DNA from: Halocatena pleomorpha
GTDB taxonomy: Archaea > Halobacteriota > Halobacteria > Halobacteriales > Haloarculaceae
Assembly: GCF_003862495.1 (NCBI RefSeq)
Contig: NZ_RRCH01000028.1
Location: forward strand, 124,001-188,000
Direction: 5' to 3'
Length of the DNA: 64,000 bases
Shown one piece after another: positions 2,178 through 41,334 of this stretch. How positions within the stretch are numbered: the first letter of the stretch is position 1; every line of letters begins with the position of its first letter. The translations under genes and the position numbers were made by a program. The notes beneath the pieces are model-generated. The model did not search any database, was not told the origin of the DNA, and saw only the letters and a program-made list of their open reading frames with translations.

Positions 2178-2325
2178 GGTACACGATTATTGCGTTTAAA
2201 AATAAACCATTCGATTATAATATAATTTACAAAAACGAGCTTTCTCAACCAATTTTCACGAAAATCAGGTTCGCGATTTTCTCGACGACCCTTCCGCGTT
2301 GGGCGCTCGATCTGCTCCGATGCCG

Positions 2326-3057: not shown

Positions 3058-3126
3058 ATGATTGCAGATAACTACATCAATGATAAAAAACCGCGGTGCG
3101 TCCTCCCTTCGTTACATGTTCAAACG

Positions 3127-18812: not shown

Positions 18813-20138
18813 CTACTGATTGATCTGAGCTTTCACGACTGTCCGTAATTCGTCCGCGTGGATGTTCTTCAGTCGCGAATCTTCTCGAAGTGTCTCAACG
18901 ATGGTGTTTGGGTCCTCTCCGAACGTAAACTCGAGGTAGCTCCCCGAATGCGGCCCCTGACTTTTCCGCTCTGTCTCGACCAAAGAATACGTCGTGAGTT
19001 CTTTCATCTTATTCACGTATGTTTCTTGATAATACTGGTCTGCATCAAGCGTCCTTGTCAGATATTGATACACTCGGTAGCTAAGCGGACTCTTTACTGC
19101 TCCAGTCCCAGTTTCCCGAGCAGCAGCAGCGGTCGCAAGGAGACAGAACTTCTTCTGAGTACTAATTCCACGAGTCACTTCTAGAACGCGGTTCTTCTCA
19201 ACCTTGTCTTGGGCTTCTCGAACGTGTTCTTCGCGGACTTTGTCCTCACCGGTTTTTTCTGCGATCGATCCTGCTGTTCGCATCAGGTCGATCGCTTTCC
19301 GTGCGTCCCCATTGGTTTGCGCGGCGAATGCTGCTGCGAGTGGGATGACATCGTCACTGAGTGCATCCTCGTGGAAAGCATCTTCCCGAGCTCGAAGAAT
19401 CTCTCGGAGTTGGTTAGCGTCGTAGTCGCTAAAATGAACGTCCTCAGGCGTAAATGAGCTGAGAGCACGACTCCCCACGCTCTCCATCATCTTTGTATCG
19501 TTAGTAATGGCGGTTACGGAGATTTGGGCGGTAATCTCGTCAGTGCTTCCAGCACGAGAGAGCTGATAGAGAAGACGAGAGAAGGCTGGTTCATCCTTAT
19601 CTCGACGCCCGACAAGCATATCGAGCTCATCGAGAATGAACACAACGGTGTCGTAGTGCTCGTTGATTAGCCGATAGAGTTCTCGCCATTTCTTCTTGTT
19701 TGAGACGCCGTGTTCTGGTACTTCAGCAGTTGTTCCGATGTCTTTGGCGACTTTTCGGGCCAACTCGTAGACTGCTGAGCCGAGAGTCCCGACGTTCTGG
19801 CAGTTCATCTGGATCACCCCAAACCTGATATCACGGCTCTCACAAAGCTCAACGATGTTCCCACAGACAGCGTTGATGATGAGTGACTTTCCAGTCCCTG
19901 ATGGCCCGTAGAGAAGGAGATTTGGAGGACGTTCATTGCTGATAGCAACACGAAGATGCTGAGTGATGTTGGTGAGCTGAGAGTCACGACCGACAATGCG
20001 CTCCTCGTCAACGATCTCGTTCGGCTCAAGAAGAGACCGATTTTTGATGAGACTTGCGGCCTCTTCCTGCTCAAGGATAAGATCTTTGATAGAACCCGTG
20101 GACTTGGAGGAGTTCTTAGGGCTAGGATCCGTGGGCAT
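18813..20138 (-). CDS. cdc6: Orc1/Cdc6 replication initiator
   Basis: From the ATG at 20138 the protein has 441 residues (an ATG at 20150 would add MGCG). It is an AAA+ ATPase: Walker A GPSGTGKS (about 78-85), Walker B FILDELD (about 167-173), a sensor-like AITNDTKM and the LRAREDAFHEDALS region. The last 120 residues resemble the winged-helix DNA-binding domain of Orc1/Cdc6. It recognises origin boxes and loads the MCM helicase. Six boxes with the core ATCGAT flank the gene, most of them just upstream, which makes this its own origin. Haloarchaea carry several such initiator-origin pairs, including on plasmids, so this does not by itself identify the main chromosome origin. Confidence 0.93.
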   Translation of the reverse strand: MPTDPSPKNSSKSTGSIKDLILEQEEAASLIKNRSLLEPNEIVDEERIVGRDSQLTNITQHLRVAISNERPPNLLLYGPSGTGKSLIINAVCGNIVELCESRDIRFGVIQMNCQNVGTLGSAVYELARKVAKDIGTTAEVPEHGVSNKKKWRELYRLINEHYDTVVFILDELDMLVGRRDKDEPAFSRLLYQLSRAGSTDEITAQISVTAITNDTKMMESVGSRALSSFTPEDVHFSDYDANQLREILRAREDAFHEDALSDDVIPLAAAFAAQTNGDARKAIDLMRTAGSIAEKTGEDKVREEHVREAQDKVEKNRVLEVTRGISTQKKFCLLATAAAARETGTGAVKSPLSYRVYQYLTRTLDADQYYQETYVNKMKELTTYSLVETERKSQGPHSGSYLEFTFGEDPNTIVETLREDSRLKNIHADELRTVVKAQINQ

Positions 20139-20313
20139 ACCGCACCCCACTCCAGCAGGATACTAAAAGATTCCTCCGTCGATTTCTTTTTGACCGCTAT
20201 GAGACTCAGGGGCAGAGAATCAAAGAGCTACTGCGTTTCACCTGCAGCCCTCCGACGATTTGTTAGGGAGGCTTTCTTTGGATAGTATCACGGAGCATAA
20301 ACACACCCTCTCA

Positions 20314-21670: not shown

Positions 21671-22512
21671 GGTTTCACCGGATTATTTTTGCTCGGTCGT
21701 ATTTTGATTCTAATGAGTTTATTTTCTTGAAATATCATAAGAAATAAATCTGGTTATTTCGACCGGTCTTTAGAGGTAAGCTCTCTACGGCTGATATTGA
21801 TTGCAGACGTGAGGAGTTCCTTCACACCTATCTCTGTCGTTTCTTTGCAGAAATATTTTTCTATTGTTTATCTAATGTAATATATGGGGCGGTATGTAGC
21901 ACCACGCCAGTTGATACTCACACAATCGATGCCGAAGATGATGACCCAGATTGGTGGTAGTGTGGCGGCCGTCAGAGAAAACGATTGCCGACTAAGAGTT
22001 CGAGACCGACGAGGAATGACGACAATTACGACTCTAAGAGCCTCATGAATTAGTTCATAAAGTGATAGAAGGAGCTTATGTACATAAGTTATCTAACAAA
22101 AATATCTCCGAGGTGAGTTAGACGTCCCGGAGTTAAAATCGAGCAAGAAATGATCTTCTTTTTGAACTATTATTCATTAGTCGAAACAAAACGTAGGAAT
22201 TGGCCGTTACCAAGTCAATCCGTTACAGGTGATTCCATCACGAGATTGGATGATTCTCTGTCCATCGACGACGATAAGATTAGCCATCAAATACTTCTAT
22301 CCAATCGTGATGGCGTCGGTAGCGCGACGAAGATAATGTCGATTTATCGACATTTATATTCGTTACGTCACGTCACTCTCGATGAGGCACGCGGCCATCG
22401 TCGTATCGACATCCCACGTCTAATGACACTATCTTCATAAATTTTAATATTTTATATTTAGTTAGTATTAATAGAAAGATTATTGTGCACCCCATAACAG
22501 ATGGTTTGTATC
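21671..22512. other. Gene-poor stretch
   Basis: About 840 bp without a convincing gene. Short open frames at 21885-22019 and 22150-22440 lack acidic composition, family resemblance and a promoter. The last 70 bp before the nucleotidyltransferase are A/T-rich (TTTTATATTTAG) and probably hold its promoter. Confidence 0.4.
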
Positions 22513-23247
22513 ATGAAAGCAGTTGTACTTGCTGCGGGGAAGGGAACGAGGTTGCGTCCCTTGACCGAAGAGAAACCAAAGGGAATGGTCGAGGTTGCGG
22601 AAAAGACGATTCTCACGCGTTGTTTCGAACAGTTACGAGAGTTGGGAGCAGAAGAACTTGTCGTCGTTGTCGGATATATGAAAGAAGAGATCATTAGCCA
22701 CTACGGCGATTCGTTCGAGGAGATCCCCATCACTTACGCGCATCAGCGCGAGCAAAACGGACTCGCTCATGCACTGTTGACGGTCGAAGAACACATTGAT
22801 AGCGACTTCATGCTCATGCTCGGCGACAACGTCTTCGACGCAAACCTCGGCGATGTAATCAATCGGCAACAGGAAGACCGAGCCGATGCCGCGTTTCTCG
22901 TGGAGGAAGTTCCCTACGAGGAAGCAAGCCGGTACGGTGTCTGTGACACTAACAACTACGGTGAGATAACCGAAGTCATCGAAAAACCCGAAAAACCACC
23001 GACAAATCTCGTCATGACTGGTTTCTATACGTTCTCACCGGCAATCTTCCACGCGTGCCAGCTCGTACAACCTTCGAACCGTGGCGAGTATGAGATTAGC
23101 GAAGCGATCGATCTACTGGTTCGTAGTGGCCGTACAATTGATGCCATTCGACTTGAAGGATGGCGGATGGACATCGGATATCCGGAAGACCAGGAGGAAG
23201 CGGAAGTGCGGTTGGAGGATATGGAAATGAAGACGCCGTCTACGTGA
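22513..23247 (+). CDS. Sugar-1-phosphate nucleotidyltransferase
   Basis: From the ATG at 22513 the protein has 244 residues; the family start MKAVVLAAGKGTRLRPLTE decides this over the ATG at 22501. It has the GxGTRL nucleotide loop, the KPKGMVEVAEKTIL block, the LGDNVF metal Asp and the VIEKPEKPPTN motif. It joins glucose-1-phosphate (or a similar sugar-1-phosphate) to UTP or dTTP. It lacks the C-terminal left-handed beta-helix of bifunctional enzymes. It lies upstream of a UDP-sulfoquinovose synthase, which needs UDP-glucose; making UDP-glucose is therefore a sensible role (inference). Confidence 0.88.
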   Translation: MKAVVLAAGKGTRLRPLTEEKPKGMVEVAEKTILTRCFEQLRELGAEELVVVVGYMKEEIISHYGDSFEEIPITYAHQREQNGLAHALLTVEEHIDSDFMLMLGDNVFDANLGDVINRQQEDRADAAFLVEEVPYEEASRYGVCDTNNYGEITEVIEKPEKPPTNLVMTGFYTFSPAIFHACQLVQPSNRGEYEISEAIDLLVRSGRTIDAIRLEGWRMDIGYPEDQEEAEVRLEDMEMKTPST

Positions 23248-23569
23248 AGAAACCAAAACGGCGAACAGAATCTCAGGTGTGGGTTTTACGTCTTTCAGAC
23301 CTACATTGCTAAGAAGAAATATTTGATTTTTAATGTTTTTATTAATATTATATTGAATTCCATGGTATTCGACTTGAGCGATCCAATGCTGAGGACATCG
23401 TTGGACAGATCTCTGGAATCGGTCGCTTCTGAGACATTCGGCGCACCGTATCCTCGATCAAAAAAGAGGTGTTGAGTGCCATCAGTTCGTCCTGCTTATA
23501 CCTAAGACACTCTGAGATGGATAAAATTAGCTAATATTTTTATTTAATTTATACTGGCTCAGAAAAAAT

Positions 23570-23581
23570 TTTATTATATAT
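23570..23581 (+). promoter_or_regulatory. Probable TATA box of the small protein at 23604
   Basis: TTATTATATATC sits 23-34 bp before the ATG, the spacing of a leaderless haloarchaeal promoter. The surroundings are A/T-rich, so the exact box is uncertain. Confidence 0.4.
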
Positions 23582-23603
23582 CCTATCAATAGTTGTGTGG
23601 GAC

Positions 23604-23720
23604 ATGACCGATAAAGAAGAGGAGAAAGCAGACGACGATAAAGAACATCTCGAAGATATTGAGGACGGTGCCGGATGCGTAGAGATTTGGGAGCGATTGA
23701 GTGAGCAACGAAAAGAATAG
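23604..23720 (+). CDS. Small acidic protein with a DGAGCxEIWExLSEQR motif
   Basis: A 38-residue protein: an acidic, charged first half (MTDKEEEKADDDKEHLEDIE) followed by EDGAGCVEIWERLSEQRKE. I recall closely similar very small proteins with the core GAGCxEIWExLSE from haloarchaeal genomes, of unknown function; this is memory, not a search. The strongly acidic codon choice in otherwise A/T-rich intergenic DNA and the TATA-like box at leaderless distance support a real gene. The single Cys could bind metal or form a disulfide. It stands alone between the nucleotidyltransferase and the sulfoquinovose synthase. Confidence 0.7.
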   Translation: MTDKEEEKADDDKEHLEDIEDGAGCVEIWERLSEQRKE

Positions 23721-23980
23721 TAATCAAAAAATGGAATCAAAAAATTACTATTAATATGTTAATTTATTACTAAATATATTAAATAGACTATATAAGTAAT
23801 TTTAAAATTACCGAGAGGATGGATGGAGTGGGATGCAAACATGAATTAGTGCTTAATTGATAGTGTTAAGTGTTGATGGCAACAATAACGATACTATCTA
23901 TATATTTCACTTAAATCTTGTTAATTTTAAAATCCAATATAAATACTTTTTATGTCCTATGTCCTTATTTCAAATAAGCC

Positions 23981-25186
23981 ATGACGGTATTACTAACTGG
24001 CGCTGATGGATACATCGGTTGGCCGACTGCGTTGCGAATTGCCGACCGGTCAGATGATCGCATCATTCTCGTCGATAACTTTGGTCGACGCGGGTGGGTT
24101 GACGAAATCGGAAGCACCAGTGCTGTTCCTGTGTGCTCGATGGATGAACGTCTAGGGGCTGCAAAATCCGCTCTCGGTCTGCACAACCTTTCGTTCGTAG
24201 AGGGCGATTTAACCGAGAAAGCATTCGTCGATAACCTCTTAGCTGTCCACCAACCCGATACCGTCGTTCACGCGGCTGCTCAACCCTCTGCACCGTATTC
24301 ACAGATCAATGGTGAGTGCGCAAACTACACGCAGCACAACAATCTACAGGCGACACGCAACCTTCTCTGGGGACTTGAAGAGAACGATCTTACAGATGCT
24401 CATTTTATAGAGACGACAACCACTGGCGTGTACGGTGCCCCGGAATTCCCTATTCCAGAGGGCGGTGCCGTGATGGAGAACGGCAAAGAGCGCGATGAGG
24501 TGCCGTTCCCGGCAATGGCTGGTAGCTGGTATCACCTAACTAAATCCCACGACGCGGCGAACATGCGGTTGGCGCATAAGCAGTTCGACATTCCGATCAG
24601 TGATGTTCGTACGTCTATCGTTTACGGCACCGAAACTGAGGAAACACGTGGCGAAAATTATCGACTCAAGACCCGATTCGACTTTGATTATTACTTCGGG
24701 ACGGTATCTCATCGCTTTGCAGCACAAGCAGTTGCTGGCTATCCTGTGACGGTGTACGGGAAAGGGGAACAGCGGAAACCGTTTATTAGTCTCGAAGACG
24801 CGGTTGAAGGGTTGGCACGATTAGCACTATCTGATCACGCTGCCCCTCCCGACGACTACGTCGTCTACAATCAAGTGACACGGCCAATCAGCATTGTAGA
24901 AGCGGCAAACACTATCGTAGATGTCGCCGCGGAGTTCGATTACAACGTCGCCGTTGAACACTTTGAGAACCCACGTGACGAGGATGAAACCCACAAGATG
25001 GAGATGGAAAACAGCCGCTATATGGATCTTATCGGCAACCAGACACAATTCTTCGAAGGAGGTGTTCGGGACATCTTCGAGACCCTTAGTCAGTACAAAG
25101 AGACCATTTCGAGCCATGAGGATCGGTTCCTCCCTAGCGTCCTGGAAGAGCGTATAGAACCCGAATCAAAGGTAGCGGTCAACTAA
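23981..25186 (+). CDS. UDP-sulfoquinovose synthase (SQD1/Agl3 family)
   Basis: A 401-residue short-chain dehydrogenase with the SQD1 pattern throughout: TGADGYIGWPTALRI (6-20) for NAD, DNFGRRG, AAQPSAPYSQI (98-109), TQHNN, TTTTGVYGAPEFPIPEG (145-161), YHLTK (184-188, catalytic Tyr and Lys), FDFDYYFGTVSHRF and VTVYGKGEQRKPFISLEDAV. The family makes UDP-sulfoquinovose from UDP-glucose and sulfite. In plants this serves sulfolipid; in Sulfolobus, Agl3 serves the S-layer N-glycan. With nucleotidyltransferase and epimerase genes around it, a sulfonated surface glycan or glycolipid is the likely product. Confidence 0.88.
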   Translation: MTVLLTGADGYIGWPTALRIADRSDDRIILVDNFGRRGWVDEIGSTSAVPVCSMDERLGAAKSALGLHNLSFVEGDLTEKAFVDNLLAVHQPDTVVHAAAQPSAPYSQINGECANYTQHNNLQATRNLLWGLEENDLTDAHFIETTTTGVYGAPEFPIPEGGAVMENGKERDEVPFPAMAGSWYHLTKSHDAANMRLAHKQFDIPISDVRTSIVYGTETEETRGENYRLKTRFDFDYYFGTVSHRFAAQAVAGYPVTVYGKGEQRKPFISLEDAVEGLARLALSDHAAPPDDYVVYNQVTRPISIVEAANTIVDVAAEFDYNVAVEHFENPRDEDETHKMEMENSRYMDLIGNQTQFFEGGVRDIFETLSQYKETISSHEDRFLPSVLEERIEPESKVAVN

Positions 25187-25206
25187 ATACAGGACTTCCA
25201 AAATTC

Positions 25207-25869
25207 ATGGATATTCTCGTCACAGGTGAGTGTGGTTACACCGGTTGTGTACTGGTACCGTTGTTGCAAGCCAAAGAAACGGTCGATACCGCTACCGGCT
25301 TGGATACCTTTTCCACTGGATCACCGCGAAACCTTCTTGGAGCGTGTATCAGAAGCGACTCAAATGTAGAATTTCAACGAGACGACGTTCACGATTACAG
25401 CAATGTCGAACATGCAACGCAGGGAGTTGATACCATCACTCCTCTCGAAGAAGTCACAGGAGTGTCAAGTACCTACGACCGAAAAGACGAGCGGTTACTC
25501 GTCGACTCCGTTTCCGATGAACACCTCCGAGGAACCGCGCTCCGGATAAGCACTAATTATGGATATACGCCCGGAGTCGGATTTCATTTTCCCATCAGCC
25601 AACTCACCTACAGGACGGCAACAGATCAACCACTCACCGAACGCGGTGACGGTACAAACAGACGGCCATTTATTCACGTCGGTGATGCCGCCAGGGCACC
25701 AAAACAAACTGCTTGCAATCCGGATACTTGGTCCGATATAATGTACAATATTGGTTGGGATGAAGAGAAAACCCGAGTGTCCGATACTGCAGAAATTATA
25801 TGTAAAACCACTAGTATAGATATTGATATTACATGTATCGAAAGAATGTACAATGAAAAAGTAAACTAA
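25207..25869 (+). pseudogene. Internally deleted NAD-dependent epimerase
   Basis: A 220-codon open frame of the extended short-chain dehydrogenase family, about 90-100 residues too short. The N-terminus ILVTGECGYTGCVLVPLL has the NAD loop with Cys and Thr where small residues are usual. The text jumps from SSTYDRKDERLLVD (about 87-100) straight to RGTALRISTNYG (about 108-119); the piece that should carry the catalytic Ser and YxxxK is missing. The far C-terminus is also cut. Reduction or epimerisation without Tyr and Lys is not expected. It follows the sulfoquinovose synthase by 20 bp and precedes an intact epimerase by 3 bp, so it was part of an operon. The frame is still open, so a non-enzymatic role remains possible. 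Confidence 0.75.
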
Positions 25870-25872
25870 ATT

Positions 25873-26862
25873 ATGAAATTTGAAACAAACACAACTGGTT
25901 GTCCGACCATCGCCGTCACTGGGGCTGCCGGTTTCATCGGTAGCCGTGTCGTTGACCGAATACAAGCGGTCCACCCGGAGTGGAACCTAATTGCCTTAGA
26001 TAACTTCTATCGGGGGTCAATCAGGAGGATCGGAGACGTAGACGTACAGCACGTGGATATTCGGAATCGTGACCGGTTGGAAGCGACACTCGACGGAGCA
26101 AATATCGTCATGCATCTGGCAGCCATCAGCGGTGTCGATGGTTGCGATACCAACCGAGATCTGGCGTACAACGTTAACGTTCAAGGAACAGCGAACGTAG
26201 TCTGGTATTGCCGGAAAGCAGGTGCTGGGCTCGTTTTCCCGTACAGCATGGCTGTGCTCGGTGATCCCACGACAACCCCGATCACGGTAAACCTACCACG
26301 GAATCCGTTGAACTGGTATGGCCGAACAAAACTCATCAGTGAGCATACTATCGAAGATATGGTGACTGATGCCTTCCCCGCGCATCTCTATCTCAAATCG
26401 AACATCTACGGTGAACATGAGATCAAGGGGAAGACGATTTCGAAAGAAACGGTCATCAACTTCTTCGTCAACCGAGTGTTCTCCGACCAACCATTGACCG
26501 TTTACGAACCAGGCACACAATCGCGTAATTATATCCACGTGAAAGATGTCGTACGCGCATACCTACGAAGCGGGGAAATACTGCTCGAACAGCTCTCGTC
26601 TGGTGAAACAGGTGTTCATCAGTACGAAATAGCGAGCAATGAAGACCCGAGTGTCATGGAAGTGGCCGAGCTCGTGGCAAAAATCGCTCTGGAGGAGGAA
26701 GGCATCGAGAAAGAGGTTGCTCTCGTCGAAAACCCTCGCTCCAGCGAGACGCTCGTCCCTGATTTTAAGGTCGATACGTCGAAGGCTCACGAAGAGCTCG
26801 GCTGGGAAATCAGACACACCGTTGAGGAGTCGGTTCGGGAACTTATTCGGAAGAAAGCGTAA
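25873..26862 (+). CDS. NAD-dependent nucleotide-sugar epimerase/dehydratase
   Basis: A 329-residue enzyme: VTGAAGFIGSRV (15-26) binds NAD, HLAAISGVDG is the conserved alanine-rich block, FPYSMAVLGDP supplies the catalytic Ser, and YGRTK has Y149 and K153. The SNIYGEHEIKGK and VTVINFF-like regions fit UDP-hexose 4-epimerases and related dehydratases. The exact reaction is unknown. It ends a run of sugar-nucleotide genes (22513-26862) on one strand and is spaced 3 bp from the broken epimerase, so all are likely transcribed together. Confidence 0.85.
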   Translation: MKFETNTTGCPTIAVTGAAGFIGSRVVDRIQAVHPEWNLIALDNFYRGSIRRIGDVDVQHVDIRNRDRLEATLDGANIVMHLAAISGVDGCDTNRDLAYNVNVQGTANVVWYCRKAGAGLVFPYSMAVLGDPTTTPITVNLPRNPLNWYGRTKLISEHTIEDMVTDAFPAHLYLKSNIYGEHEIKGKTISKETVINFFVNRVFSDQPLTVYEPGTQSRNYIHVKDVVRAYLRSGEILLEQLSSGETGVHQYEIASNEDPSVMEVAELVAKIALEEEGIEKEVALVENPRSSETLVPDFKVDTSKAHEELGWEIRHTVEESVRELIRKKA

Positions 26863-27238: not shown

Positions 27239-28771
27239 ATGCCTCAAGGCAAACACGGAGGTAAGCGTGACGAGAGCAGTGAACACATCGAACAGTCTCC
27301 CGAGCAAACGAGTGGTGGGAGCAGCAGCCTCACAGGATTCCAACGAAGAAAATTCCTGAAAGGTATCGGGATCGCAGGTCTTGGTACTTTTTCTGTCACG
27401 GGGATCTCCTCGTCCACAAGCGCGGATAGTAACGATGGCATGGATGTAGAGGGGGACAACGTGTATCTCGTCTTCGGTGCCGATACCTCGTCGGATAACC
27501 TTGATTCGTGGCTAAACAAACGAATGGATGATGTATCAAGTAATTCATCAACCCCTTATCTCCGGTATCAGGACGTCTCGCAGTTGAATGTCGCTGTTCG
27601 GGGGCTAGCCGTATCCATCTCTATCGACGGCGGGGAGGCACAGGCACTCCAGCGCACAATCCAGAAGAATTCGAACTTTCAGGCTGGAGAGGATCCTCGA
27701 TCGATGTCTGAAAGTAATGAGGAGAGGGAGGAGACGTTTACGAACATTGGAAACATCTACGTCATCTTAGCGGAGGAAACCGAACAGCACAAGTTCAACG
27801 GCTGGCATGTTAGCGGCGAAACATACCAACCCGACTATAACGAGAACACCGAGATTGATCAGGAACAAGACGTAGATCAGATCAACTTTAGCCTGCAGGC
27901 AGCAGCGATTTCGATCGCTGAGGGCGGAAGTCGCTCTAGGGCGCGTCAGCAGAATTTCCAGAAAAACAAGAACCTTCAGGCTGCGAGCGCGTTCTCTGAG
28001 AACAGCAAGAAAGATCACCGCTACCGCGGTGAATCCTTGAACAGTCAGTCTCAGGTTGTCAACCAGGCGAACATTTCCTTACAAGGTGTTGCAATCGCGA
28101 TTGCCGTCGGAGAGGGAAGCGTTGCGAAGGCATTGCAGGTAAGCCGTCAGATCAATAAGAATGCCCAGATCAAAGACGGACCAGTAGCCTTCGAACCGAT
28201 GTCAATCAAGGAGTTCGCAGCAAACGCCGAGATGGACGGCGATTACTCGGACTCGGACGTGAAGCGGGCAAAAGATGGTTCGTCCCAGCGGAATAACCGT
28301 GGTGACACCAACGGTATCGCGCAGTTCCAAGACAGTTTCCAGACGAACATCAACGCCCAACTCCTAGCTCTCGCTGTCGCGATTGACGAAAGCGAGGCCA
28401 ACGCCACCCAGGCCAGCTACCAAGGTAACTTCAACGCGCAGATCCTGGAGTCAAACGGAAACAACGTCAGGCCAGAGAGCACCGAACTCGTTACTGCAAT
28501 GAACGGAAAGAAGATGAAGGACGGCGCTTGGGGTGCTGACTACAAGAAGAAGGACAACCCCATTGAAAACAACTCCATCGAAAATTTCACGCAGGCTCAG
28601 GTTGTCAGGCAGTTGAATGTGAACGCGCAGTTCCTAGCGGTCGCCGTTGCCATCGGTCAAGGAGCCGCAACGGCGGAACAGCTCAACTTCCAGCGCAATA
28701 AGAACGTTCAGGTTTGCAAAACAGACGGTGACGTCAAGCGCGACAAAAAGAAGCGCAAGGTAGACTGTTAA
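27239..28771 (+). CDS. Tat-exported protein with five curlin-like Q/N/A repeats
   Basis: A 510-residue exported protein. FQRRKFLKGIGIAGLGTFSV (34-53) is a Tat signal. The mature part has five repeats of about 37 residues, near 112-148, 211-247, 272-310, 363-401 and 455-491. Each follows QxN-x-x-x-Q-x-A-hydrophobic/Ala strand, then a Gly/Glu turn (GGEAQA, GGSRSR, GEGSVA, DESEAN, GQGAAT), then Q-x-x-x-Q-x-N-x-NxQ. The linkers are polar and charged. Alternating Ala/Ile with ladders of Gln and Asn resembles curlin repeats (SxxxxxQxGxxNxAxxxQ), so a beta-solenoid or amyloid-forming surface fibre is suggested. Two NVYLVFGAD / NIYVILAEE segments (74-82, 172-180) precede repeats 1 and 2. No homolog recognised with certainty. 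Confidence 0.8.
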   Translation: MPQGKHGGKRDESSEHIEQSPEQTSGGSSSLTGFQRRKFLKGIGIAGLGTFSVTGISSSTSADSNDGMDVEGDNVYLVFGADTSSDNLDSWLNKRMDDVSSNSSTPYLRYQDVSQLNVAVRGLAVSISIDGGEAQALQRTIQKNSNFQAGEDPRSMSESNEEREETFTNIGNIYVILAEETEQHKFNGWHVSGETYQPDYNENTEIDQEQDVDQINFSLQAAAISIAEGGSRSRARQQNFQKNKNLQAASAFSENSKKDHRYRGESLNSQSQVVNQANISLQGVAIAIAVGEGSVAKALQVSRQINKNAQIKDGPVAFEPMSIKEFAANAEMDGDYSDSDVKRAKDGSSQRNNRGDTNGIAQFQDSFQTNINAQLLALAVAIDESEANATQASYQGNFNAQILESNGNNVRPESTELVTAMNGKKMKDGAWGADYKKKDNPIENNSIENFTQAQVVRQLNVNAQFLAVAVAIGQGAATAEQLNFQRNKNVQVCKTDGDVKRDKKKRKVDC

Positions 28772-30770: not shown

Positions 30771-33700
30771 TTATTGATTACTGGTCTCCTGAAGATGTGC
30801 GACAGTTTTGATCGAGTTATTCGTCGTGTTATTTAACAGCGTATCGAGGTTGGTCGATGTCGAGTTATGTAGTTGCTGCTGGAACGACTTGCCACCCGAT
30901 ATCCTGTGCGTTGTGTCTGTGTCTGTGTCGACGACGAGCGTGGGCGGTGCGGTGTTGGTTGCCGGCTTGACCGTTACATCGGTTCCGGCGTGTGCACCGA
31001 CTGTCTCACCGTAGAGAGCAATATCTGCGGTCGAGAGGTCGGTGATAGTCTTCTGTTCGGGGGTATTCATGAAGATATAGACGGCACCAGCGTTCGGCCC
31101 GCCGATAGTGCTCTCGGGCACGCCGACCACGAGATCAGTGGTTCCCGTCTCGGTAAGATCACCGCTGGCAACGTTCCAGCCAAGTCTATCTGCCGGCCGA
31201 AGGTCGGCTTTCGGTGCGTTCTCGGGTAGCGGTTGTATGGGTGTGGCGAATTCGTCCGGATTCCTTCCGACGCGGAAGATGCCCCAGAATCCACCTTCAA
31301 GCCGCCGGCGTTCTTTGAGTTCGCCGTACAGGAAATCGCCGGGACACTCAGCGAGTCCACCAGCACCGCTGACCATGTCCAACTGATCGGCACTCCCAAC
31401 CGTAAACCTATCATCAACACCGATGATTGGGGAGTCGGCTACTTGGGTGAAGCGTCGCCACTGGTGTTCCGACAGGTGGAATGAGAGGCCACGCGCTTTA
31501 TCAGCCATCTTACCGACGAGGAACCTGACGTCGTCACCGACCAACGCCTTGGGGAGTGGCGTTGCGGGATCACCGTGTGATTCCGAGTCGAAGACGAGAT
31601 GTTGATCGTCGGGCCCCGTCTGGAAGCGCCGGATAAATGGTTCTGAACGGTTGTTGATGGCTGGGTAGCCCTGATCCTCGCGATCACCGATCTGATTACA
31701 AGGGGCGTCGGCGTTCTCGGTGTCTGGGCCTGGTGGGACGACACAATTATCTGGATAATCACGATTGATGATGTATCTAGCGTCGCTCATCTGCAGCGTG
31801 AATTCCCGTCTATCTGCCCCATGCGGATTCTTGAGCATTGTACTGTCGCCTGCTGGGAGCGGCTCAGCCGTCACGGGATCAAGCCACGTCGTGTCTGGTG
31901 GTGTGACCACGAGTCCACCGAAGGCACCATGGTGGCGATGACTTCGTATGTCTGCGGTGTCCCAAAGTGCGACGAAGGGGTGATCTTGGTGCGGTGACCA
32001 CCGATATGTAATCGTTTCGCCTGGCGCGATCGTCTGGTCGAAATTGAACCCGACGGTTGCCCCGTCCGACCCGTTCACGTCGTAATCAGTATGCAGAGCG
32101 TGCAGCGAAATCCGATTCGAGGGCTCCCATGGCCGTTCGATCCGCATTAACGGGTGTGCGTGGTCGGCGTCAAGTTCGCACGGTAGTTCGTTCGTGAGAT
32201 TGATCTCGAGACAATCACCCTCGTTTGCCCGGATGATCAGCGGTTCGGCGGGCCGGTCGCCGCACTTGATATCCTCGACGTGTTCATCGAGTGCGAAGAT
32301 GATGCCACAGGGATCGTGGTCGCCGTACCCGTTGAACTCGATTTCCGTTTGGAACGCCGTCACGTTAACCTGCCGCACCGGCGCATTATCCGAACAGGGG
32401 TCGCCTGGATCTGGGGCTTTCGGCGGCTTCGTGCCGACGTTCTTGTTCTGCCGGGCATTCTTATCCGGCGGGAACACCTGCTCGTCGTTCTCGTCGTACA
32501 GTAGCTTCGCCTCGTACCCAAGGCGTTTGAGCCGTTTGAAGCCAAGGAATGGTGCGAAGTGACCCATTCGCCGTAGATCGGTCTTGGTGATGGGGTCGCC
32601 TTTCGGCGGGCCACGATCGGGGAGGGGCTTGAGATGCGGTGTTTTGGCGTCGAACACGCGATGAATCCCCCACATACCGGTCCAAAGATCATCGACGACA
32701 GCCGAGCCGTAGAGATAGTCTTGCACCGGCAGTCCGAACGGGTTGTTCATTCGCTTGAAGTCAGTGTCATCGTCCATGTGGGGTGGGTCAATGAAGAACG
32801 TGAACTGTTCGGAGGTGCCGATGATGTTCGAGACGGTGTCCTCGACGGCCAATCCCTCCGTCTCGAAGAACCGACCGTGCAGTTGGAAATTGTGCTGTTC
32901 TTCCCAGACGCCCTGAATCAGCCGAATCCGGATCGGGTCGTTCGAATACGCTTCGAGGACTGGAGTCGCTGGATCACCATGGACGGCAGAACTGAACGAA
33001 TACGCCGGATCGGGATCGCCGCGCTGGTAAACCGGTGTATTCCGGAGATTGATCGCCATCGTCCCACCGTTCTCGTTGTGTTCTTCCTCGTTGTTGATGA
33101 ACTCTCCCTTGCGATTAACGAGTTGCGCGAAGTCCTGGTAGTGGAGACAGAATTCCCGAAAGTCGTTCTGGCCCTCCGGCCGTTTGATAATCGCCTGTGA
33201 ACCACTCTTGATAGGGCTGCCCGAATATGGATCAAGGTACTCTGAACCCTCGGGTTCGACGATAAGAGCACAGAACTCTCCGTGCATGGCGTCGTCGATG
33301 CCGAAGATGTGATCGTGGAAGTAGATCGGGCCTTCCTCGTCGGCGTACCACCGGTAGGTCCGCTGTTGTCCGGGTTCAGTATCCTGATCGTAGTTGAAGC
33401 CCATTGCAAGCGAGTCCGAGCCCAGCAGATCGAAGCTCACAAAATGTGGGTGAATCGAGACCGGCCGTTCAGTCTCGTTTTTGACCGTTATCTCAACACA
33501 GTCTCCGACGTTCGCGCGAATGAACAACGGTTCGGGATTGAGCTCGCCGTTCCGAATCGCGTCGGCGTCTTCCTCAAGAACGTAGATGATTCCTTCGGGA
33601 TCGTGATCGCCATTGTCGTTATAGACGATGTCAGCGGGAAGCACTACGATCGTGTATTCTTTCACCGGAGCGTCTTTGCCAGCGGGCGGACCGCCGAATG

Positions 33701-35570
33701 CGGTGTTATCGATAAAGGGATCACACGGGTCGGCGTAGGGTGCGCCTGGTTGAATGTCACCGAGTGCCTGTTTTTCTTCAGGAGTGGGCTGCCGGCCAGT
33801 TACCGGCGGATTTGGTCCTGTTGTCTGAGGTGAGTCTGGGGGCGGACTTCCAACTTCTGCAGGGACGAAGTCCGGAAAGCCAGGGATTGGCGAGTCGTCC
33901 GGCAAGATCCCTTCCCTGAACGGCACCTCATCAGGCACTGGTTTGTTGGCGATTGTGGTGTTCGGCAGTGGCTTGAGACCACACTGTTCCTTATCGAAGA
34001 TACGGAAGCCGGCCCACATCCCCTCGCCATAGTGGGGGAACAAGTGACAGTGGAAGATATTATCCCCCGCCGTTCCGTGCGCTCCGCCGGCCCCGATTTC
34101 GAACGCCTCCTCGAAGGTCATATCCGGGCGAACTGTCTCGATAGGCCCAGACGCCTCTGATCCCTGCGCTTCGCCGTGTCCGGCGACGAAAAAGACGGGA
34201 TAAGTTGCCCCAAGACCGAGTGTCTGGGAGTCGATCGTGTCCGAATCCGTTCGACCTGGGATTGTCTTCCACCGATGTGCGTGCAAGTGATGGACGTGGT
34301 TTTCCTCGGTTGAGGCACCGACCGCGACGAACTTCATCGGGTCGCCCTTGTAGACGGGATACATGTTGTCCCCGCCACCAGGATCGCCGTTCACCCACGA
34401 GTTGTAGAAAAATTCTTCCAAGAGAGCCGTGTCGAGGTCGGGTGTTTCCGGTAAGTCCGGATCGGCGCGCTGACCAGTCGAATCAGCGCGATAGTTGATC
34501 GCGTGCACGGTCTGCTCCGTATCCGACTCGGGAAACGTCAGATCCGGATCCATCCCTTCAGGCGTGTGGTAGTGCGCAACGATCTCCCGGTAGCTGGTGC
34601 CCATAAATTCGGGATCGTGGATGTCTGCCTGAATTCCACTCCGCAGCTCCTTCCCGGTAAATGGGTCTGTCCACGTCGCTCCTTCGGGTTCGACAACTAG
34701 TGTGCCGAACAGGCCTTTCGAGAGGAGGTTTGCCTTTTGTGGTGGCTCCGCAGCGCTGTCCATCGCAGGATTCGCCAAGTCATAGAAGAAGTGGCCACCC
34801 TGATGGCTCGCGAACCAACGATACGTAATGGAGTCACCGGGCGCAACGGTCGTATCCGGGTTAAAACCGACTTTCGCCCCGTCGGAGTCTTTGACGTTGT
34901 ACGGAAGACTCGTCTGGTGGATCGACGCGTGACGATCCAGATGATTGATGAACTCGATTTCGACGAGATCACCCTCGTTCGCACGAATCACGAGCGGTCG
35001 GAGGACTGAAGTCGGAACGTCCTCGTGGTTATCGTCTTCACACCGATCCTCACCGTGCGTGATATCGAAGTCACACTCGACCTCATCGGTATCCGCACAC
35101 CGGTCTTTCTTATTGTTGTGCGCTCCCTTTTTGTGTTTCTTTCCTTTCCTGTCCTTTTTCTCCCGTCTAACGCTTGAGTAGAAGTCGAATCGCTCGTCAT
35201 CGTCGTCAGCCGCCTCGAACCCCTCATCGGGGAACGTGCCGGACGCCTCACGGGCGGCCTCCAAATCCTCATCGAGGACATACATCACCCCTTTGGGCTG
35301 ATGGAGTCCAAATCGATTATAGGGGATATCCACAGAAATCGCGTGTACTGTGAATGTGCGCACTTTCCCATTCTTAGCAGGCTCATCCGGAACCCTAGCA
35401 AGGATGTCCTCCGGGAGCACGGAATTGGCTAGATTCAGATTACTGATTCCCGTCGCAAGCGCACTGCCCCCCGCGAGAAACGACCGCCGCGAGGTATGGA
35501 CCTGATCGACGGCAGGTGAAGTATCCGTCGTGTTACTATCCAGTTCATCATTGGTTGATTCTTTTCTCAT
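30771..35570 (-). CDS. Giant three-module multicopper oxidase with FG-GAP-like end
   Basis: A 1599-residue Tat-exported protein (SRRSFLAGGSALATG, 27-41). Three related cupredoxin modules lie near 70-530, 640-975 and 1065-1435; each begins with a HDPxGIIYxLxE-type strand and an RANxGDxxEI strand. Module 1 has HVHHLHAHRW (425-434) and FHCHLFPHYGEGMW (506-519), which contains Cys508, His513 and Met518 of a type 1 copper site. Module 2 has HPH (707-709) and HDH (752-754). So all four classic copper motifs exist, but the late pair precedes the early pair. Module 3 keeps only scattered His. A Lys/Asp-rich insert lies at 120-185 and an FG-GAP-like repeat (DLVVGVPESTIGGPNAGAVY) near 1479-1498. Such enzymes oxidise phenols or metals outside the cell; manganese oxidases of MnxG/MofA type are also very large. 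Substrate unknown. Confidence 0.85.
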   Translation of the reverse strand: MRKESTNDELDSNTTDTSPAVDQVHTSRRSFLAGGSALATGISNLNLANSVLPEDILARVPDEPAKNGKVRTFTVHAISVDIPYNRFGLHQPKGVMYVLDEDLEAAREASGTFPDEGFEAADDDDERFDFYSSVRREKKDRKGKKHKKGAHNNKKDRCADTDEVECDFDITHGEDRCEDDNHEDVPTSVLRPLVIRANEGDLVEIEFINHLDRHASIHQTSLPYNVKDSDGAKVGFNPDTTVAPGDSITYRWFASHQGGHFFYDLANPAMDSAAEPPQKANLLSKGLFGTLVVEPEGATWTDPFTGKELRSGIQADIHDPEFMGTSYREIVAHYHTPEGMDPDLTFPESDTEQTVHAINYRADSTGQRADPDLPETPDLDTALLEEFFYNSWVNGDPGGGDNMYPVYKGDPMKFVAVGASTEENHVHHLHAHRWKTIPGRTDSDTIDSQTLGLGATYPVFFVAGHGEAQGSEASGPIETVRPDMTFEEAFEIGAGGAHGTAGDNIFHCHLFPHYGEGMWAGFRIFDKEQCGLKPLPNTTIANKPVPDEVPFREGILPDDSPIPGFPDFVPAEVGSPPPDSPQTTGPNPPVTGRQPTPEEKQALGDIQPGAPYADPCDPFIDNTAFGGPPAGKDAPVKEYTIVVLPADIVYNDNGDHDPEGIIYVLEEDADAIRNGELNPEPLFIRANVGDCVEITVKNETERPVSIHPHFVSFDLLGSDSLAMGFNYDQDTEPGQQRTYRWYADEEGPIYFHDHIFGIDDAMHGEFCALIVEPEGSEYLDPYSGSPIKSGSQAIIKRPEGQNDFREFCLHYQDFAQLVNRKGEFINNEEEHNENGGTMAINLRNTPVYQRGDPDPAYSFSSAVHGDPATPVLEAYSNDPIRIRLIQGVWEEQHNFQLHGRFFETEGLAVEDTVSNIIGTSEQFTFFIDPPHMDDDTDFKRMNNPFGLPVQDYLYGSAVVDDLWTGMWGIHRVFDAKTPHLKPLPDRGPPKGDPITKTDLRRMGHFAPFLGFKRLKRLGYEAKLLYDENDEQVFPPDKNARQNKNVGTKPPKAPDPGDPCSDNAPVRQVNVTAFQTEIEFNGYGDHDPCGIIFALDEHVEDIKCGDRPAEPLIIRANEGDCLEINLTNELPCELDADHAHPLMRIERPWEPSNRISLHALHTDYDVNGSDGATVGFNFDQTIAPGETITYRWSPHQDHPFVALWDTADIRSHRHHGAFGGLVVTPPDTTWLDPVTAEPLPAGDSTMLKNPHGADRREFTLQMSDARYIINRDYPDNCVVPPGPDTENADAPCNQIGDREDQGYPAINNRSEPFIRRFQTGPDDQHLVFDSESHGDPATPLPKALVGDDVRFLVGKMADKARGLSFHLSEHQWRRFTQVADSPIIGVDDRFTVGSADQLDMVSGAGGLAECPGDFLYGELKERRRLEGGFWGIFRVGRNPDEFATPIQPLPENAPKADLRPADRLGWNVASGDLTETGTTDLVVGVPESTIGGPNAGAVYIFMNTPEQKTITDLSTADIALYGETVGAHAGTDVTVKPATNTAPPTLVVDTDTDTTHRISGGKSFQQQLHNSTSTNLDTLLNNTTNNSIKTVAHLQETSNQ

Positions 35571-37113: not shown

Positions 37114-37420
37114 TTGGATCCTATCGCTGACGCTCTGCACCACTCAGAGATATATAGCGAGCTCACCTCCGAAATCTACTGGACGGAGGACGGCGCCCGC
37201 GAGTTCGACGTGTCGATCGAAGGGAAAGAGGTCGTTTCAAACCTTGACATCCACGGCTGGATCAGCCATGACGCCGTGTGCGTCGAGGCTATCTTTGGGA
37301 TCGCGGACAACACAACTGTGAGCGCTATCGGGATCGCTGGTACAAACGGGCCACGACCGTGCCGTCTAACCCGATCCGCGGATCTATGAGGGACGCGCTT
37401 GATATTGCTGAGACAGAATC
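37114..37420 (+). pseudogene. Remnant of an unidentified gene, frameshifted
   Basis: From a TTG at 37114 the text DALHHSEIYSELTSEIYWTE, then EFDVSIEGKEVVSNLDIHGW and AVCVEAIFGIADNT has good haloarchaeal composition. It then breaks; the next frame continues with CERYRDRWYKRATTVPSNPI and RGSMRDALDIAET. A single frameshift near 37318 would join them. The start is not a good one and the reading runs into the end of the TrmB gene on the other strand. The family was not recognised; the piece may be the end of a longer protein once next to the TrmB-GH81 pair. Confidence 0.4.
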
Positions 37421-38537
37421 ACCACGTCATCAAGGTGATGTCCTGCGTACCGTCGGCGTCTGCACTCGTCGGTTCGTCGAATTCGATCGCGTTGAAGGAG
37501 ATCCGGACTGCCTCAATATCCTCATAGACGGTGCCCCACCCGCCGACGCTGTACAGGCCGTTGTCAGCGGCGACCTCCAGCCGTAGGAATCCGGCCAACT
37601 CCTCGAACGACGGGCATCTCTCAGGGCGGTAGACATCCGAGTACGCGATATCGGTGACACGCCCGGTGATCTCACAGGGTTCGTTCGTGTCGACCCATGT
37701 TCCCTCGACCGTCACGGCGACACTCGCTCCGTCCTCCCACAGCGGCGCCACGTCCCGGACGAACTCTTCGAGGGTCACGTAGACGTACGGCGGGCCGGTG
37801 TCTTCATAGACCGTCTCCCAGAGGGCCCAGACGCCCGTCTGGAAGTACCAGTGGAAGATAAACGAGAGGATGTAGTCATCGATCAGGACGCCGAACGGCC
37901 TGTTGGCCCAGTCGTTTGGCGTGAAGCACGTCCACGTGCGGTCCGCTACGAGTAGAAACGGTCCTGGGATCCGGCACGCGCGGAGTTCCGTTACTGTCCC
38001 CTCAAGGGACTCCGCGAGTCTCTCCTCCAGATCGATTCCGTATACGGCCACCTTCGTGACGACACCACGGTCATGTGCGTCCGCAAGGGCGTTCGTCAAC
38101 GCCCGGAACTGATCGACGGTTGCTGACAGTTCAATAAAGCTCTCCGTGTCTCGGATCAAGTCACGGGCCCGGTCAACGACCGTCTCCTCGTGCTTGACGA
38201 CGCTGACCATGTGGTCGCTGATCGCTGGCCGCTCCCACCGGTCCTCAATCGCGTCTGCCGCCTTGTTCATCAGCTGCCCCCGAGACCGAAGTTCACGGAG
38301 GACATCGATCGGCTCTCGTGGACGGGCGTGGAGTTTGTCCTGATCGAACGTCTCGATGTAGTCCATCCGTTCGAGATCGCGGAGGACATCGTAGATCTGG
38401 GACATCGGTACGGAACATCGCTTGGCGACCTTCACGGCTGGCATCATTCCTTGCTCGAGCAACGTGACGTAGGCGTCAGCCTGGTATGAGGTCAACCCTG
38501 CGCCCTGTAGCGCGTCTTGGAGCGGGTCTCTATCCAT
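37419..38537 (-). CDS. TrmB family transcriptional regulator
   Basis: A 372-residue regulator. Residues about 1-75 form the TrmB winged helix (LQDALQGAGLTSYQADAYVT, then VAKRCSVPMSQIYDVLRDLE and a DYIETF wing). Next comes a coiled linker (VLRELRSRGQLMNKAADAIE), then the C-terminal sugar-sensing domain (residues about 120-370). Family knowledge: TrmB proteins bind sugars and repress or activate sugar uptake and metabolism genes. It follows a GH81 glucanase gene on the same strand with about 200 bp between, so control of beta-glucan use is a reasonable inference. Confidence 0.9.
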   Translation of the reverse strand: MDRDPLQDALQGAGLTSYQADAYVTLLEQGMMPAVKVAKRCSVPMSQIYDVLRDLERMDYIETFDQDKLHARPREPIDVLRELRSRGQLMNKAADAIEDRWERPAISDHMVSVVKHEETVVDRARDLIRDTESFIELSATVDQFRALTNALADAHDRGVVTKVAVYGIDLEERLAESLEGTVTELRACRIPGPFLLVADRTWTCFTPNDWANRPFGVLIDDYILSFIFHWYFQTGVWALWETVYEDTGPPYVYVTLEEFVRDVAPLWEDGASVAVTVEGTWVDTNEPCEITGRVTDIAYSDVYRPERCPSFEELAGFLRLEVAADNGLYSVGGWGTVYEDIEAVRISFNAIEFDEPTSADADGTQDITLMTW

Positions 38538-38733: not shown

Positions 38734-41334
38734 TCAGTACTCGTGAGTAATCGCGTCGGAGACGTACTGCCCACCAGCACCGTCGTCCCAGACGAATCGG
38801 ACGTTGATAGAGTCGCCGTCGTCAGCGGTGTCGCGTGCGTGGCGGTGGGTCCCCCCATCGGACTCCATGCGGTAGCCGATCCAGCCGCCGTCATCGAACT
38901 GGATGTCCGCCCAAGCGGCGTCGTTGTTCGGATCGAACGTCCAATAGCTGGTGTCGCCGTCGTCGGTGACAATGGCGGTCCAGTTGTCGCCGGAGTAGGT
39001 GGTTGTACTGTCACCGCCGCCGCCATTACCGCCGTCACCGGTGTCGTCGCCTGCAGACGTGGCCATCGAATTCGGAGGGATGTCCAGTTGCGCGCCGTCG
39101 GAGAAGGTCACGGTTGTAGTGGAGTCACCAGCGTTGTAGGCCACGTAGGTCCGCTGACTGCCGTCGCTGAACACCTGGTAGAACGGTGTATCTGCGGTGA
39201 CGGTGCCGTCCGGTGAGCCCATCTCGCGGAGGTTATAGATCCAGTGATACGTCTGAGCGCGCGTGTGTCCACCTTCGATTTCGTAGGTGTTCTTCCGCGC
39301 TTCGAACTTCTCGACAGCGTCCTGTCCATCCGAAAGCGCCCGATACATCCACATGATGTCCGGCCAGTAGTCGAATTCGTCAGTGCCCTTGTTCTCGACG
39401 AGTTCGTTGTAGTTCTCCTCCGGCACCGCGTCATCCCATCCCAAATGCAGCGAGTAGCCAGCGAGTGGCAGCCAGTTGATGCCATGGATTGCTTCCTCGT
39501 TGGCAGTCCACCAGGTGGCGTGGGCATAACCGTTGCCCCACACCATCCCGGCGGTCCCGTAGTCCCACGAGTCGGGGTGATTCGCGTTGTCGGCGTCGAA
39601 CCAGTATTCGTGGACAGCGTGGAGTTCAGTCGTGTAGAGGAAGACGCCGAAGTCGCGTAGCTCCTCGTTGCCCGTGTACTCGCCCCACTCGATGATCGCC
39701 GCATATGCGTTGAGCGCCTCGGATGATGATTCCTGGTTGTTCCCGTCGGCGAACTCGGCACCGCCGCCTTCCGCCCAAGAGTGCCCACAGTACGGACTGA
39801 AGTTGCGTGCAAACGGGAACATGTCGTCATCACGGCGAGGATTGGCGTAATCGCGGATCAGGTGCTCGACCATACCGCCCCACTGGTCCTGAGCGCCCCA
39901 CTCAGAGTTGGTGCGCGCGATCTCGGCAGCGGCGCGCACGTAGTACCCGTAGTGAAAGTGGTGATCAGACAACGACGACGCCGACCCGTGGCTCTCGGGA
40001 TATCCCAGTAGCGACTTCCAAGTGTCATCGTAGTAGAACAGTTCCGTCGTTCCGCTCTCGGCCTGAAGCCACCTCTCAAGGTGATCCCGCAGCGAGCCAA
40101 CGATGTCGTCGCGCTTGCCGCTCAGGCCAAACTGCTCGGCCAGCGCCTTGCTCTCGACCAGCCGACCGTAATCTTTGCCGACGTTGTACGTGTCGGGGCC
40201 CTCAATCGAGGTGTCGATCTCTTCGATGTATCCCTGCAGCTCTGCGGTGTCGTAACTGCCCTCGTCGGGTAAGAACGGGAGCATGCCGCCGTAGTCGTAC
40301 GTCGTCGAAAACGATGACTTGGCGACGACACGCATCTCCCCGCGCTGGGACGTGTAAGTCGTCTCTAGCGTGTCGTCATCGCTGTGCTTCCACTGATGGG
40401 GGTGCAAAGCGGTGATCGTCCCTGTGGTTGCGCTCTCGGCCCTGTCATCCGTCTCGAAGTTGTAGGTGGTGTGGACTGCAGCGTTGGCTTGGTCGTACTC
40501 CCAGTCGACCCGAGTGTCGGTGACGAAGTTGTACGCGTAGTCCTCGAACGTTCCGAGGAAAGCGGTCTCGGGTAGGGCGGCGATCGAGCAGTAGCCAGCG
40601 CCGCCGAGGTCGTTGGTGAGTGTGTCGGTGCCGACGCCCGACCAGGTCGTTCCGGACGGAGCGAACAGCCCGTAGTGGTGCCCACCAACGGTGACGCCGA
40701 GAACGTTCCCTTCTTCAGTCCAGATCTCTGGCGCACTGTCGAATTTGATCACGGCTCCGCCGCCCTCGTACTCGCAGAATACGAAGGGTGATCCTTGTGC
40801 GAACGTTGTGCGCAACGTCGTGGCACTCCCCTCGCCCCAGAGCGCGTCAACCGACCAGTCGCCGTGATCGTCCAAGCGCGTGTCAGCGAAACTGTCGGTA
40901 CCTGCGTGTCCGATTGTCAGATCACGGCCGCTGTTGTCCATCACCGTCGTCGTGCCGTCAACCCAGTTGGTCGGGTTCTTGACGAGGAGCCCGTCGTCTT
41001 CCGCCCGAAGCATCAGCGGCTGGGCGAACATGTTCTCCGAAAATGCGTTCCAGACTAGACTCGACCACCAGTCGTTGGTCGGAACCGGCTCATCACCGAA
41101 CCCTGTGGTCGTCCAGATTGCATCCTGAGGTGCTTGCGCACCCGACGGCAACGCCGTCGTGTAACTGCCGTTGCCAACCGGCACATGGTTGCTCGCACTG
41201 GCAGTGCTGGCCCCACCGACCGTCCACGCCGCCGATGCTGCGCCGACCAGCTTGCAGTAATCCCTGCGCGATACGTCGTTCGATTGCGCTTGACTGTCGA
41301 TCGCTTCGTCGTTCGAAGATTGTTCGTTGCTCAT
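38734..41334 (-). CDS. GH81 endo-beta-1,3-glucanase with C-terminal binding domain
   Basis: An 866-residue secreted enzyme. The Tat signal is SRRDYCKLVGAASAAWTVGG (about 22-41). The GH81 domain begins with PVPTNDWWSSLVWNAFSENM (about 78-97) and MLRAEDDGLLVKNP, and contains the family's catalytic region ADGNNQESSSEALNAYAAII with its Glu pair. It cleaves internal beta-1,3-glucan links (laminarin, fungal or algal glucan). After a Gly/Asp linker (DDTGDGGNGGGGDSTT) comes a domain of about 85 residues, WTAIVTDDGDTSYWTFDPNN onward, that looks like a carbohydrate-binding module. It is next to a TrmB regulator on the same strand. Confidence 0.9.
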   Translation of the reverse strand: MSNEQSSNDEAIDSQAQSNDVSRRDYCKLVGAASAAWTVGGASTASASNHVPVGNGSYTTALPSGAQAPQDAIWTTTGFGDEPVPTNDWWSSLVWNAFSENMFAQPLMLRAEDDGLLVKNPTNWVDGTTTVMDNSGRDLTIGHAGTDSFADTRLDDHGDWSVDALWGEGSATTLRTTFAQGSPFVFCEYEGGGAVIKFDSAPEIWTEEGNVLGVTVGGHHYGLFAPSGTTWSGVGTDTLTNDLGGAGYCSIAALPETAFLGTFEDYAYNFVTDTRVDWEYDQANAAVHTTYNFETDDRAESATTGTITALHPHQWKHSDDDTLETTYTSQRGEMRVVAKSSFSTTYDYGGMLPFLPDEGSYDTAELQGYIEEIDTSIEGPDTYNVGKDYGRLVESKALAEQFGLSGKRDDIVGSLRDHLERWLQAESGTTELFYYDDTWKSLLGYPESHGSASSLSDHHFHYGYYVRAAAEIARTNSEWGAQDQWGGMVEHLIRDYANPRRDDDMFPFARNFSPYCGHSWAEGGGAEFADGNNQESSSEALNAYAAIIEWGEYTGNEELRDFGVFLYTTELHAVHEYWFDADNANHPDSWDYGTAGMVWGNGYAHATWWTANEEAIHGINWLPLAGYSLHLGWDDAVPEENYNELVENKGTDEFDYWPDIMWMYRALSDGQDAVEKFEARKNTYEIEGGHTRAQTYHWIYNLREMGSPDGTVTADTPFYQVFSDGSQRTYVAYNAGDSTTTVTFSDGAQLDIPPNSMATSAGDDTGDGGNGGGGDSTTTYSGDNWTAIVTDDGDTSYWTFDPNNDAAWADIQFDDGGWIGYRMESDGGTHRHARDTADDGDSINVRFVWDDGAGGQYVSDAITHEY

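Follow-up and report, generated by a model that had tools for sequence, protein, structure and literature searches.

What kind of exported protein is encoded at 27239..28771 (+) of the Halocatena pleomorpha window, and is it an archaeal counterpart of the curli subunits? The window, as we use the word, is the whole stretch of 64,000 nucleotides that we analysed, and the open reading frame of 510 aa lies where the original prediction had placed it. That prediction had proposed, as a candidate, a Tat-exported, curli-like fibre subunit built from five repeats that share a ladder of Gln and Asn residues, with long charged linkers and without curli secretion genes nearby.

The five repeats turned out to be real and in register. 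Each is a unit of ~48 aa reading AxVxQxQxVxQxNxNxQ..AxAxA-DG(S/G)-xAxAxQxSxQxNxNxQxGxAxAxN, in which strands of alternating Ala/Ile/Val flank a Gly/acidic turn, and the first ladder Gln of R1 to R5 falls at residues 111, 210, 272, 364 and 454. The units occupy 27551..27706 (R1, E 1.3e-19), 27848..28003 (R2, E 7.5e-18), 28034..28192 (R3, E 4.5e-17), 28310..28465 (R4, E 2.2e-16) and 28580..28735 (R5, E 4.1e-18) of the plus strand, and the second half-ladder follows the first after 27 residues, or 28 in R3. The half-ladder Q...Q.N...Q occurs 9 times in the protein vs 0.03 times expected from 5000 shuffles (maximum 2), and the full two-strand unit occurs 4 times vs 0.000 (none in the 5000 shuffles). 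Overall, 50 of the 55 ladder positions are retained, and three of the losses (two Gln to Arg, one Asn to Ala) are found in R1, where the ladder is partly degenerate and the letter make-up departs from the rest. The linkers are indeed charged and range from ~10 to ~47 aa, but long linkers are an arrangement known from Fap rather than a novelty (PMC12392863).

Searches of Pfam, NCBIfam and PDB sequences, both with the protein and with profiles, returned nothing significant. Curlin membership was rejected on several counts: the curlin profile PF07012 scored over its cut-off in none of 59 genomes of the class and had no match at E<=1 in the window's genome, while the E. coli control matched; an hhalign comparison with the CsgA/B repeats aligned 5 columns only (E 0.084, probability 0.7%); and the curlin motif SX5QXGX2NXAX3Q with its period of ~22 aa was not found in the protein, where the half spacing is 27 or 28. 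The curlin-like logic of the original prediction survives in the inward Gln/Asn ladder, the predicted strand-turn-strand design, the five repeats and the predicted extracellular export, but the protein is not a curlin by sequence. FapC proteins are defined by repeats of ~38 aa that carry conserved networks of Asn and Gln and are joined by variable linkers, and 94% of them have three repeats (PMC12392863); their published motif with three ~38-aa repeats was not found here either, the five ~48-aa repeats following another consensus. Since it has neither the curlin features nor the FapC motif and repeat count, the protein is, as judged from its sequence, the founder of an undescribed haloarchaeal family and a member of neither curlin nor FapC. 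Plasmid records label its relatives "hypothetical protein", or "PGF-CTERM sorting domain-containing protein" where such a tail is present, and a literature search, with subscription papers outside its scope, found no paper on this haloarchaeal family.

Of the 391 genomes of the class, 85 (about a fifth) had a family match at E<=0.001, very few of these being weak, N-terminal-only matches. Most members fall into one taxonomic family (Natrialbaceae, going by the named loci) and others belong to Haladaptatus, Halalkalicoccus, Halogranum, Halegenticoccus and Halomicrococcus, while three further genomes of the window's own genus are without a family protein. The named relatives are often plasmid-borne, and an Orc1/Cdc6-like gene of the window (18813-20150), a relative of which (L034:5381-6883) adjoins the ladder gene of Haladaptatus litoreus, suggests a plasmid-type replicon or island; together, these observations fit an accessory, transferred gene. 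Two further genes of the window, encoding a TrmB-type regulator (37419-38537) and a GH81-type glucanase (38734-41334), are shared with the Halogranum ladder locus (L036:6452-7570 and 1533-4208). In Haladaptatus genomes that carry other, intact copies, the ladder gene was also seen in truncated or broken form (L085:8094-8381; L063:8301-8981).

Nearly all members have exactly five units, most with 10 half-ladders, and in 203 units from 43 proteins the half spacing is 27 (161 units) or 28 (42 units) and never another value. The consensus of 160 units with a spacing of 27 is A-x-V-x-Q-x-Q-x-V-x-Q-x-N-x-N-x-Q..A-x-A-x-A..DG(S/G)-x-A-x-A-x-Q-x-S-x-Q-x-N-x-N-x-Q-x-G-x-A-x-A-x-N, and nine ladder positions of the 27-spaced units are 100% Gln or Asn, most of them being fixed by the very ladder pattern with which the 203 units were picked (N35 was free). 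Since this search pattern pre-selects some letters, the alignment of the 43 proteins serves as the independent test of conservation: its invariant columns are overwhelmingly those of the Gln/Asn ladder, found in all five units, with a few Ala, Gly and Ser of the turn. Conserved and variable residues alternate, from which we read that the ladder, carried by imperfect repeats, faces one side. When the window copy was compared with 21 relatives, identity reached 92% in the ladder and 63% at the remaining inward positions, as opposed to 32% for outward positions and 33% for the linkers. These patterns indicate that the ladder is under strong purifying selection across the whole family. Outside the repeats, the motifs YLVFGAD and FxGW are conserved; the former lies in an N-terminal DNVYLVFGAD stretch (27455..27484, +), where F79 and G80 are invariant and Y76 and A81 near-invariant across the family.

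On the family tree, no branch is longer than that of the window copy (1.32 vs a median of 0.12), which makes its retention of the ladder striking. Because of this long branch, its degraded R1 and its lack of a small partner (see below), this most diverged member may be drifting or decaying, or else specialised.

Extracellular export of the window protein is predicted from its signal motif. The N-terminus, RRKFLKGIGIAG, was recognised by inspection as a twin-arginine signal, with the twin arginine ahead of a hydrophobic stretch (RRKFLKGIGIAGLGTFSVTG) in a signal region at 27338..27424 (+) that includes ...QRRKFLKGIGIAGLGTFSVTGISSSTSA. The match to the Tat profile is weak (E 0.19 for the window copy, up to 0.0038 in relatives), and the curated TAT cut-offs are reached by neither the window copy nor its relatives. 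By motif and inspection, 22 of the 43 members carry a twin-arginine motif and the other 21 have non-Tat, mostly Sec-type N-termini, one of these (L037) sitting within the otherwise Tat-type branch. A twin-arginine signal is thus present as originally claimed, export in the folded state being a putative reading of it, but it does not define the family; since half of the members are non-Tat, a Tat-folded fibre cannot be the key idea, and Tat use is not the point of the system.

C-terminal tails also vary among members. In the window copy, a Lys/Arg-rich tail (28715..28768, +; CKTDGDVKRDKKKRKVDC) ends on a Cys residue, and a Cys lies within the last 10 residues in 10 of 21 members of the Tat group, whereas members of the Sec group have almost none. 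Lys-rich tails were found in 14 of the 43 members, the window copy included; other carriers are L034, L038 and L043-L049, the tail of L049 being His/Lys-rich. Such tails are unusual for a haloarchaeon, given the acidic proteomes of these organisms, and their putative role would be to bind anionic polysaccharide, as supported by sugar-nucleotide genes immediately upstream of the ladder gene (22501..26862, +; identified by Pfam), namely an NTP_transferase (22501-23247, +) and epimerases (23981-25186 and 25873-26862, +). In five relatives the C-terminus is a PGF-CTERM-like tail, which a profile backs in L053, L079, L081 and L022 (the last being a copy of the L070 protein).

AlphaFold2, run with the family alignment, predicted that each repeat consists of two long strands connected by a tight turn, with pLDDT values of 89-97, in line with the curlin-like logic. 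In a model of the trimmed core, R2 to R5 each comprise a strand of 29-30 residues and one of 18-23 residues, with pLDDT up to 95-97; the linkers are mostly below 50 and the pTM of 0.57 is moderate. These models are of a single chain and are silent on intermolecular stacking. A Foldseek search with the core model against 350,542 PDB chains ranked two FapC chains and Pontibacter CsgA as its top three, at non-significant E-values of 0.045, 0.2 and 0.6, with probabilities of at most 0.06 (0.02 for the top FapC) and TM values of about 0.05-0.17, and all three chains recurred among the five best matches of the full-length model. We take this as a hint of likeness to FapC and CsgA and not as fold identity: because the matches are non-significant and the TM values very low, neither a curli-type nor a Fap-type fold was assigned.

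In line with the original prediction, none of the nine window genes scanned with Pfam is a csg-like secretion gene, and the neighbours identified are unrelated to fapABCDEF. One neighbour, convergent with the ladder gene, encodes an exported multicopper oxidase-like protein of 1599 aa (30771..35570, -; Pfam Cu-oxidase_3/_2 and, at the C-terminus, an FG-GAP repeat) that synteny makes a possible accessory: in Halalkalicoccus, Haladaptatus pallidirubidus and Natronococcus amylolyticus (L035:1195-5724; L039:10-4839; L044:11030-15712), a homologue is found at 1.5-3.1 kb from the ladder gene. As only 6 of 30 sampled genomes have the oxidase, in three of them elsewhere in the genome, it was rejected as an obligatory partner. 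Because the choice of the window was not independent of this neighbour, we regard the oxidase as an island companion that offers a lead.

The absence of partner genes holds for the window but not for the family, since small exported proteins, one to four in number, adjoin 28 of 54 named loci; co-occurrence is judged on this locus count, as a 42-genome tally of small proteins includes matches to the large protein. The partner genes are upstream and divergent in 41 of 44 cases, at a median distance of 0.8 kb, and most encode 105-170 aa (a few are longer), usually with one ladder unit and with a conserved Sec-type signal (MKRALTLALTVALIGSLxFMGFAGTAAA). They occur mainly in the Sec-signal branch and, within the window's branch, only at L036, L037 and L051. 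No small one-unit partner was found in the window's own genome, where the sole extra match, L136, was rejected as a partner: it lacks a ladder, although a signal peptide is present. The arrangement at the 28 loci recalls that of csgB/csgA and fapB/fapC, and by this analogy suggests a pair of major and minor subunits. Small one-unit proteins with Sec signals also form tandem arrays (L062:2731-7269; L083:6366-7022; L069:6058-6779; L079-L084), of up to four copies, and in some of them the ladders are degenerate and very rich in Gln and Asp. In Haladaptatus salinisoli, whose genome has 25 unit matches, small ladder genes form a further array at a distance from the large gene (G394:C1:62136-63897).

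The reading that we favour, with a probability of roughly 0.58, is that the protein is the major, extracellular, self-stacking beta-arch subunit of a cell-surface matrix, functional-amyloid-like and analogous to FapC and CsgA, with units and linkers in the manner of FapC and a simple arch in that of curli, its stacking, polymerisation and matrix role being inferred. The protein carries an export signal and five units, each predicted as two strands and a Gly/acidic turn with half-ladders 27-28 aa apart, in which the inward ladder Q-Q-(V)-Q-N-N-Q / Q-(S)-Q-N-N-Q stays near-invariant across the family as outward residues and linkers drift. Units would stack in register, their Gln and Asn side chains forming hydrogen-bond ladders, such that one chain makes a five-layer solenoid with its linkers looped out, and successive monomers would extend the stack end to end as a fibre within the matrix. 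In relatives, the small one-unit secreted proteins may cap, nucleate or co-polymerise, and Lys-rich or archaeosortase (PGF-CTERM) tails may anchor the fibre, either on anionic polysaccharide or on the cell envelope. A broader version, which we hold tentatively and at somewhat less than even odds, is a two-component haloarchaeal functional amyloid that would have evolved independently of curli and Fap. Its major subunit, exported by Tat or Sec, would have five layers and an unusually wide beta-arch with a Gln/Asn ladder, its divergently encoded minor subunits would have one layer, and the unit would be re-used without a signal peptide in a few Firmicutes.

Could the units stack within the chain and go no further? 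A monomeric beta-solenoid adhesin or spacer, displayed at the surface by members with PGF-CTERM or Lys tails and binding polysaccharide or neighbouring cells, would fit the five units of nearly all members as a finite solenoid, the PGF-CTERM anchors of five relatives, YLVFGAD and FxGW as possible caps and the polysaccharide genes upstream. However, most members lack an anchor, the repeat number of FapC is fixed as well (94% with three, PMC12392863), and separate one-unit ladder proteins, which make little sense beside an adhesin, fit a nucleator or co-polymer, so that we consider this explanation unlikely, although a serious one. A sheath or S-layer-associated lattice protein that coats cells instead of forming free fibres, like the amyloid sheath proteins of Methanospirillum and Methanothrix, is improbable: the archaeal amyloid precedents are sheaths (PMC6242892, PMC11576556) and the C-terminal Cys seen in roughly half of the Tat group might form cross-links of the kind suggested for sheath proteins, but Cys is nearly absent in the Sec group, the sheath core described from methanogens and related archaea has two sheets, each of six antiparallel strands, and our searches gave no profile or fold match between sheath proteins and the ladder protein.

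The oxidase could also be more than a companion if the repeat protein were its substrate or carrier, for example cross-linked or metal-loaded; the pair occurs in four genera (those of the window, Halalkalicoccus, Haladaptatus and Natronococcus) and L049 has its His/Lys-rich tail, but most family genomes have no oxidase and it may merely travel on the same plasmid-type island, which leaves such a scaffold very improbable. Lastly, that the Gln/Asn-rich repeats arose by low-complexity expansion without structural function would suit the divergence of the window copy and its degraded R1, yet it is contradicted by the conservation pattern (the ladder-to-linker contrast in identity, the fixed 27/28 spacing and the adjacent partner genes), and we rejected it as barely credible.

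Beyond the archaea, ladder units were matched in 2 of 398 genomes of the Firmicutes phylum. Tandem genes with Gln/Asn-ladder units and no signal peptide were seen in Firmicutes MAGs (Thermincola, Clostridiaceae; L088:7977-10289, L089:7950-10218, L090:8025-9541), with extra C-terminal domains, and the units of L089 and L090, which were outside the search profile, scored E 2e-17 and 7e-16. In L088, these genes adjoin two YheC/D ATP-grasp genes and a capsule-synthesis (PGA_cap) gene; YheC/D proteins are spore-coat-associated in Bacillus, and the Firmicutes proteins are possible spore-coat or exosporium candidates. Shared ancestry and convergence towards a single structural rule could both account for the likeness.

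If the favoured subunit does form fibres, then curli-like Gln/Asn stacking arose more than once and works in near-saturated salt, without a curli or Fap secretion channel. The family would also yield salt-stable scaffolds, and its ladder, already mapped by conservation, lends itself to a test of key positions.

How does the ladder protein compare with known systems? In haloarchaea, Haloferax volcanii biofilms have a matrix with a putative amyloid that binds Congo red and ThT, for which the gene is unconfirmed and HVO_1403 was suggested (PMC4180959). The ladder protein is missing from nearly all genomes sampled in the window's taxonomic family and is for that reason an unlikely source of this staining; for haloarchaeal biofilms that stain amyloid-like, the ladder family is a concrete and widespread candidate with an apparent major/minor arrangement. 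Described archaeal amyloids are mostly methanogen sheaths, and the MspA/SH proteins of Methanospirillum and Methanothrix are likewise archaeal, exported and amyloid-like with imperfect repeats (PMC6242892, PMC11576556), but they build a tubular coat on a core of two six-stranded sheets.

CsgA and CsgB share with the ladder proteins strand-turn-strand units, inward Gln and Asn, five units and separate major and minor subunit genes, and their S-x-(hydrophobic)-x-(hydrophobic)-x-Q resembles the S-x-A-x-A-x-Q that opens the second strand here; they differ in their unit of about 22 aa, against ~48 aa with predicted strands of 18-30 residues, and in the long charged linkers of the family, which has no PF07012 match over the cut-off and no profile-profile match. 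FapC and FapB differ in their three units, their motif, the Greek key of FapC as opposed to the simple two-strand unit predicted here, and a minor subunit of three units instead of one; the ladder protein is archaeal and uses Tat or Sec export. An outer membrane is not expected in archaea, nor is the outer-membrane porin of Fap in such a system. The likenesses to FapC and FapB, whose principles and those of CsgA have been described (PMC12392863, PMC12822426), are units of ~40 aa that each form one cross-beta layer in Fap, long variable linkers (PMC12392863), a conserved inward Asn/Gln network, a fixed unit count and a separate gene for the minor subunit.
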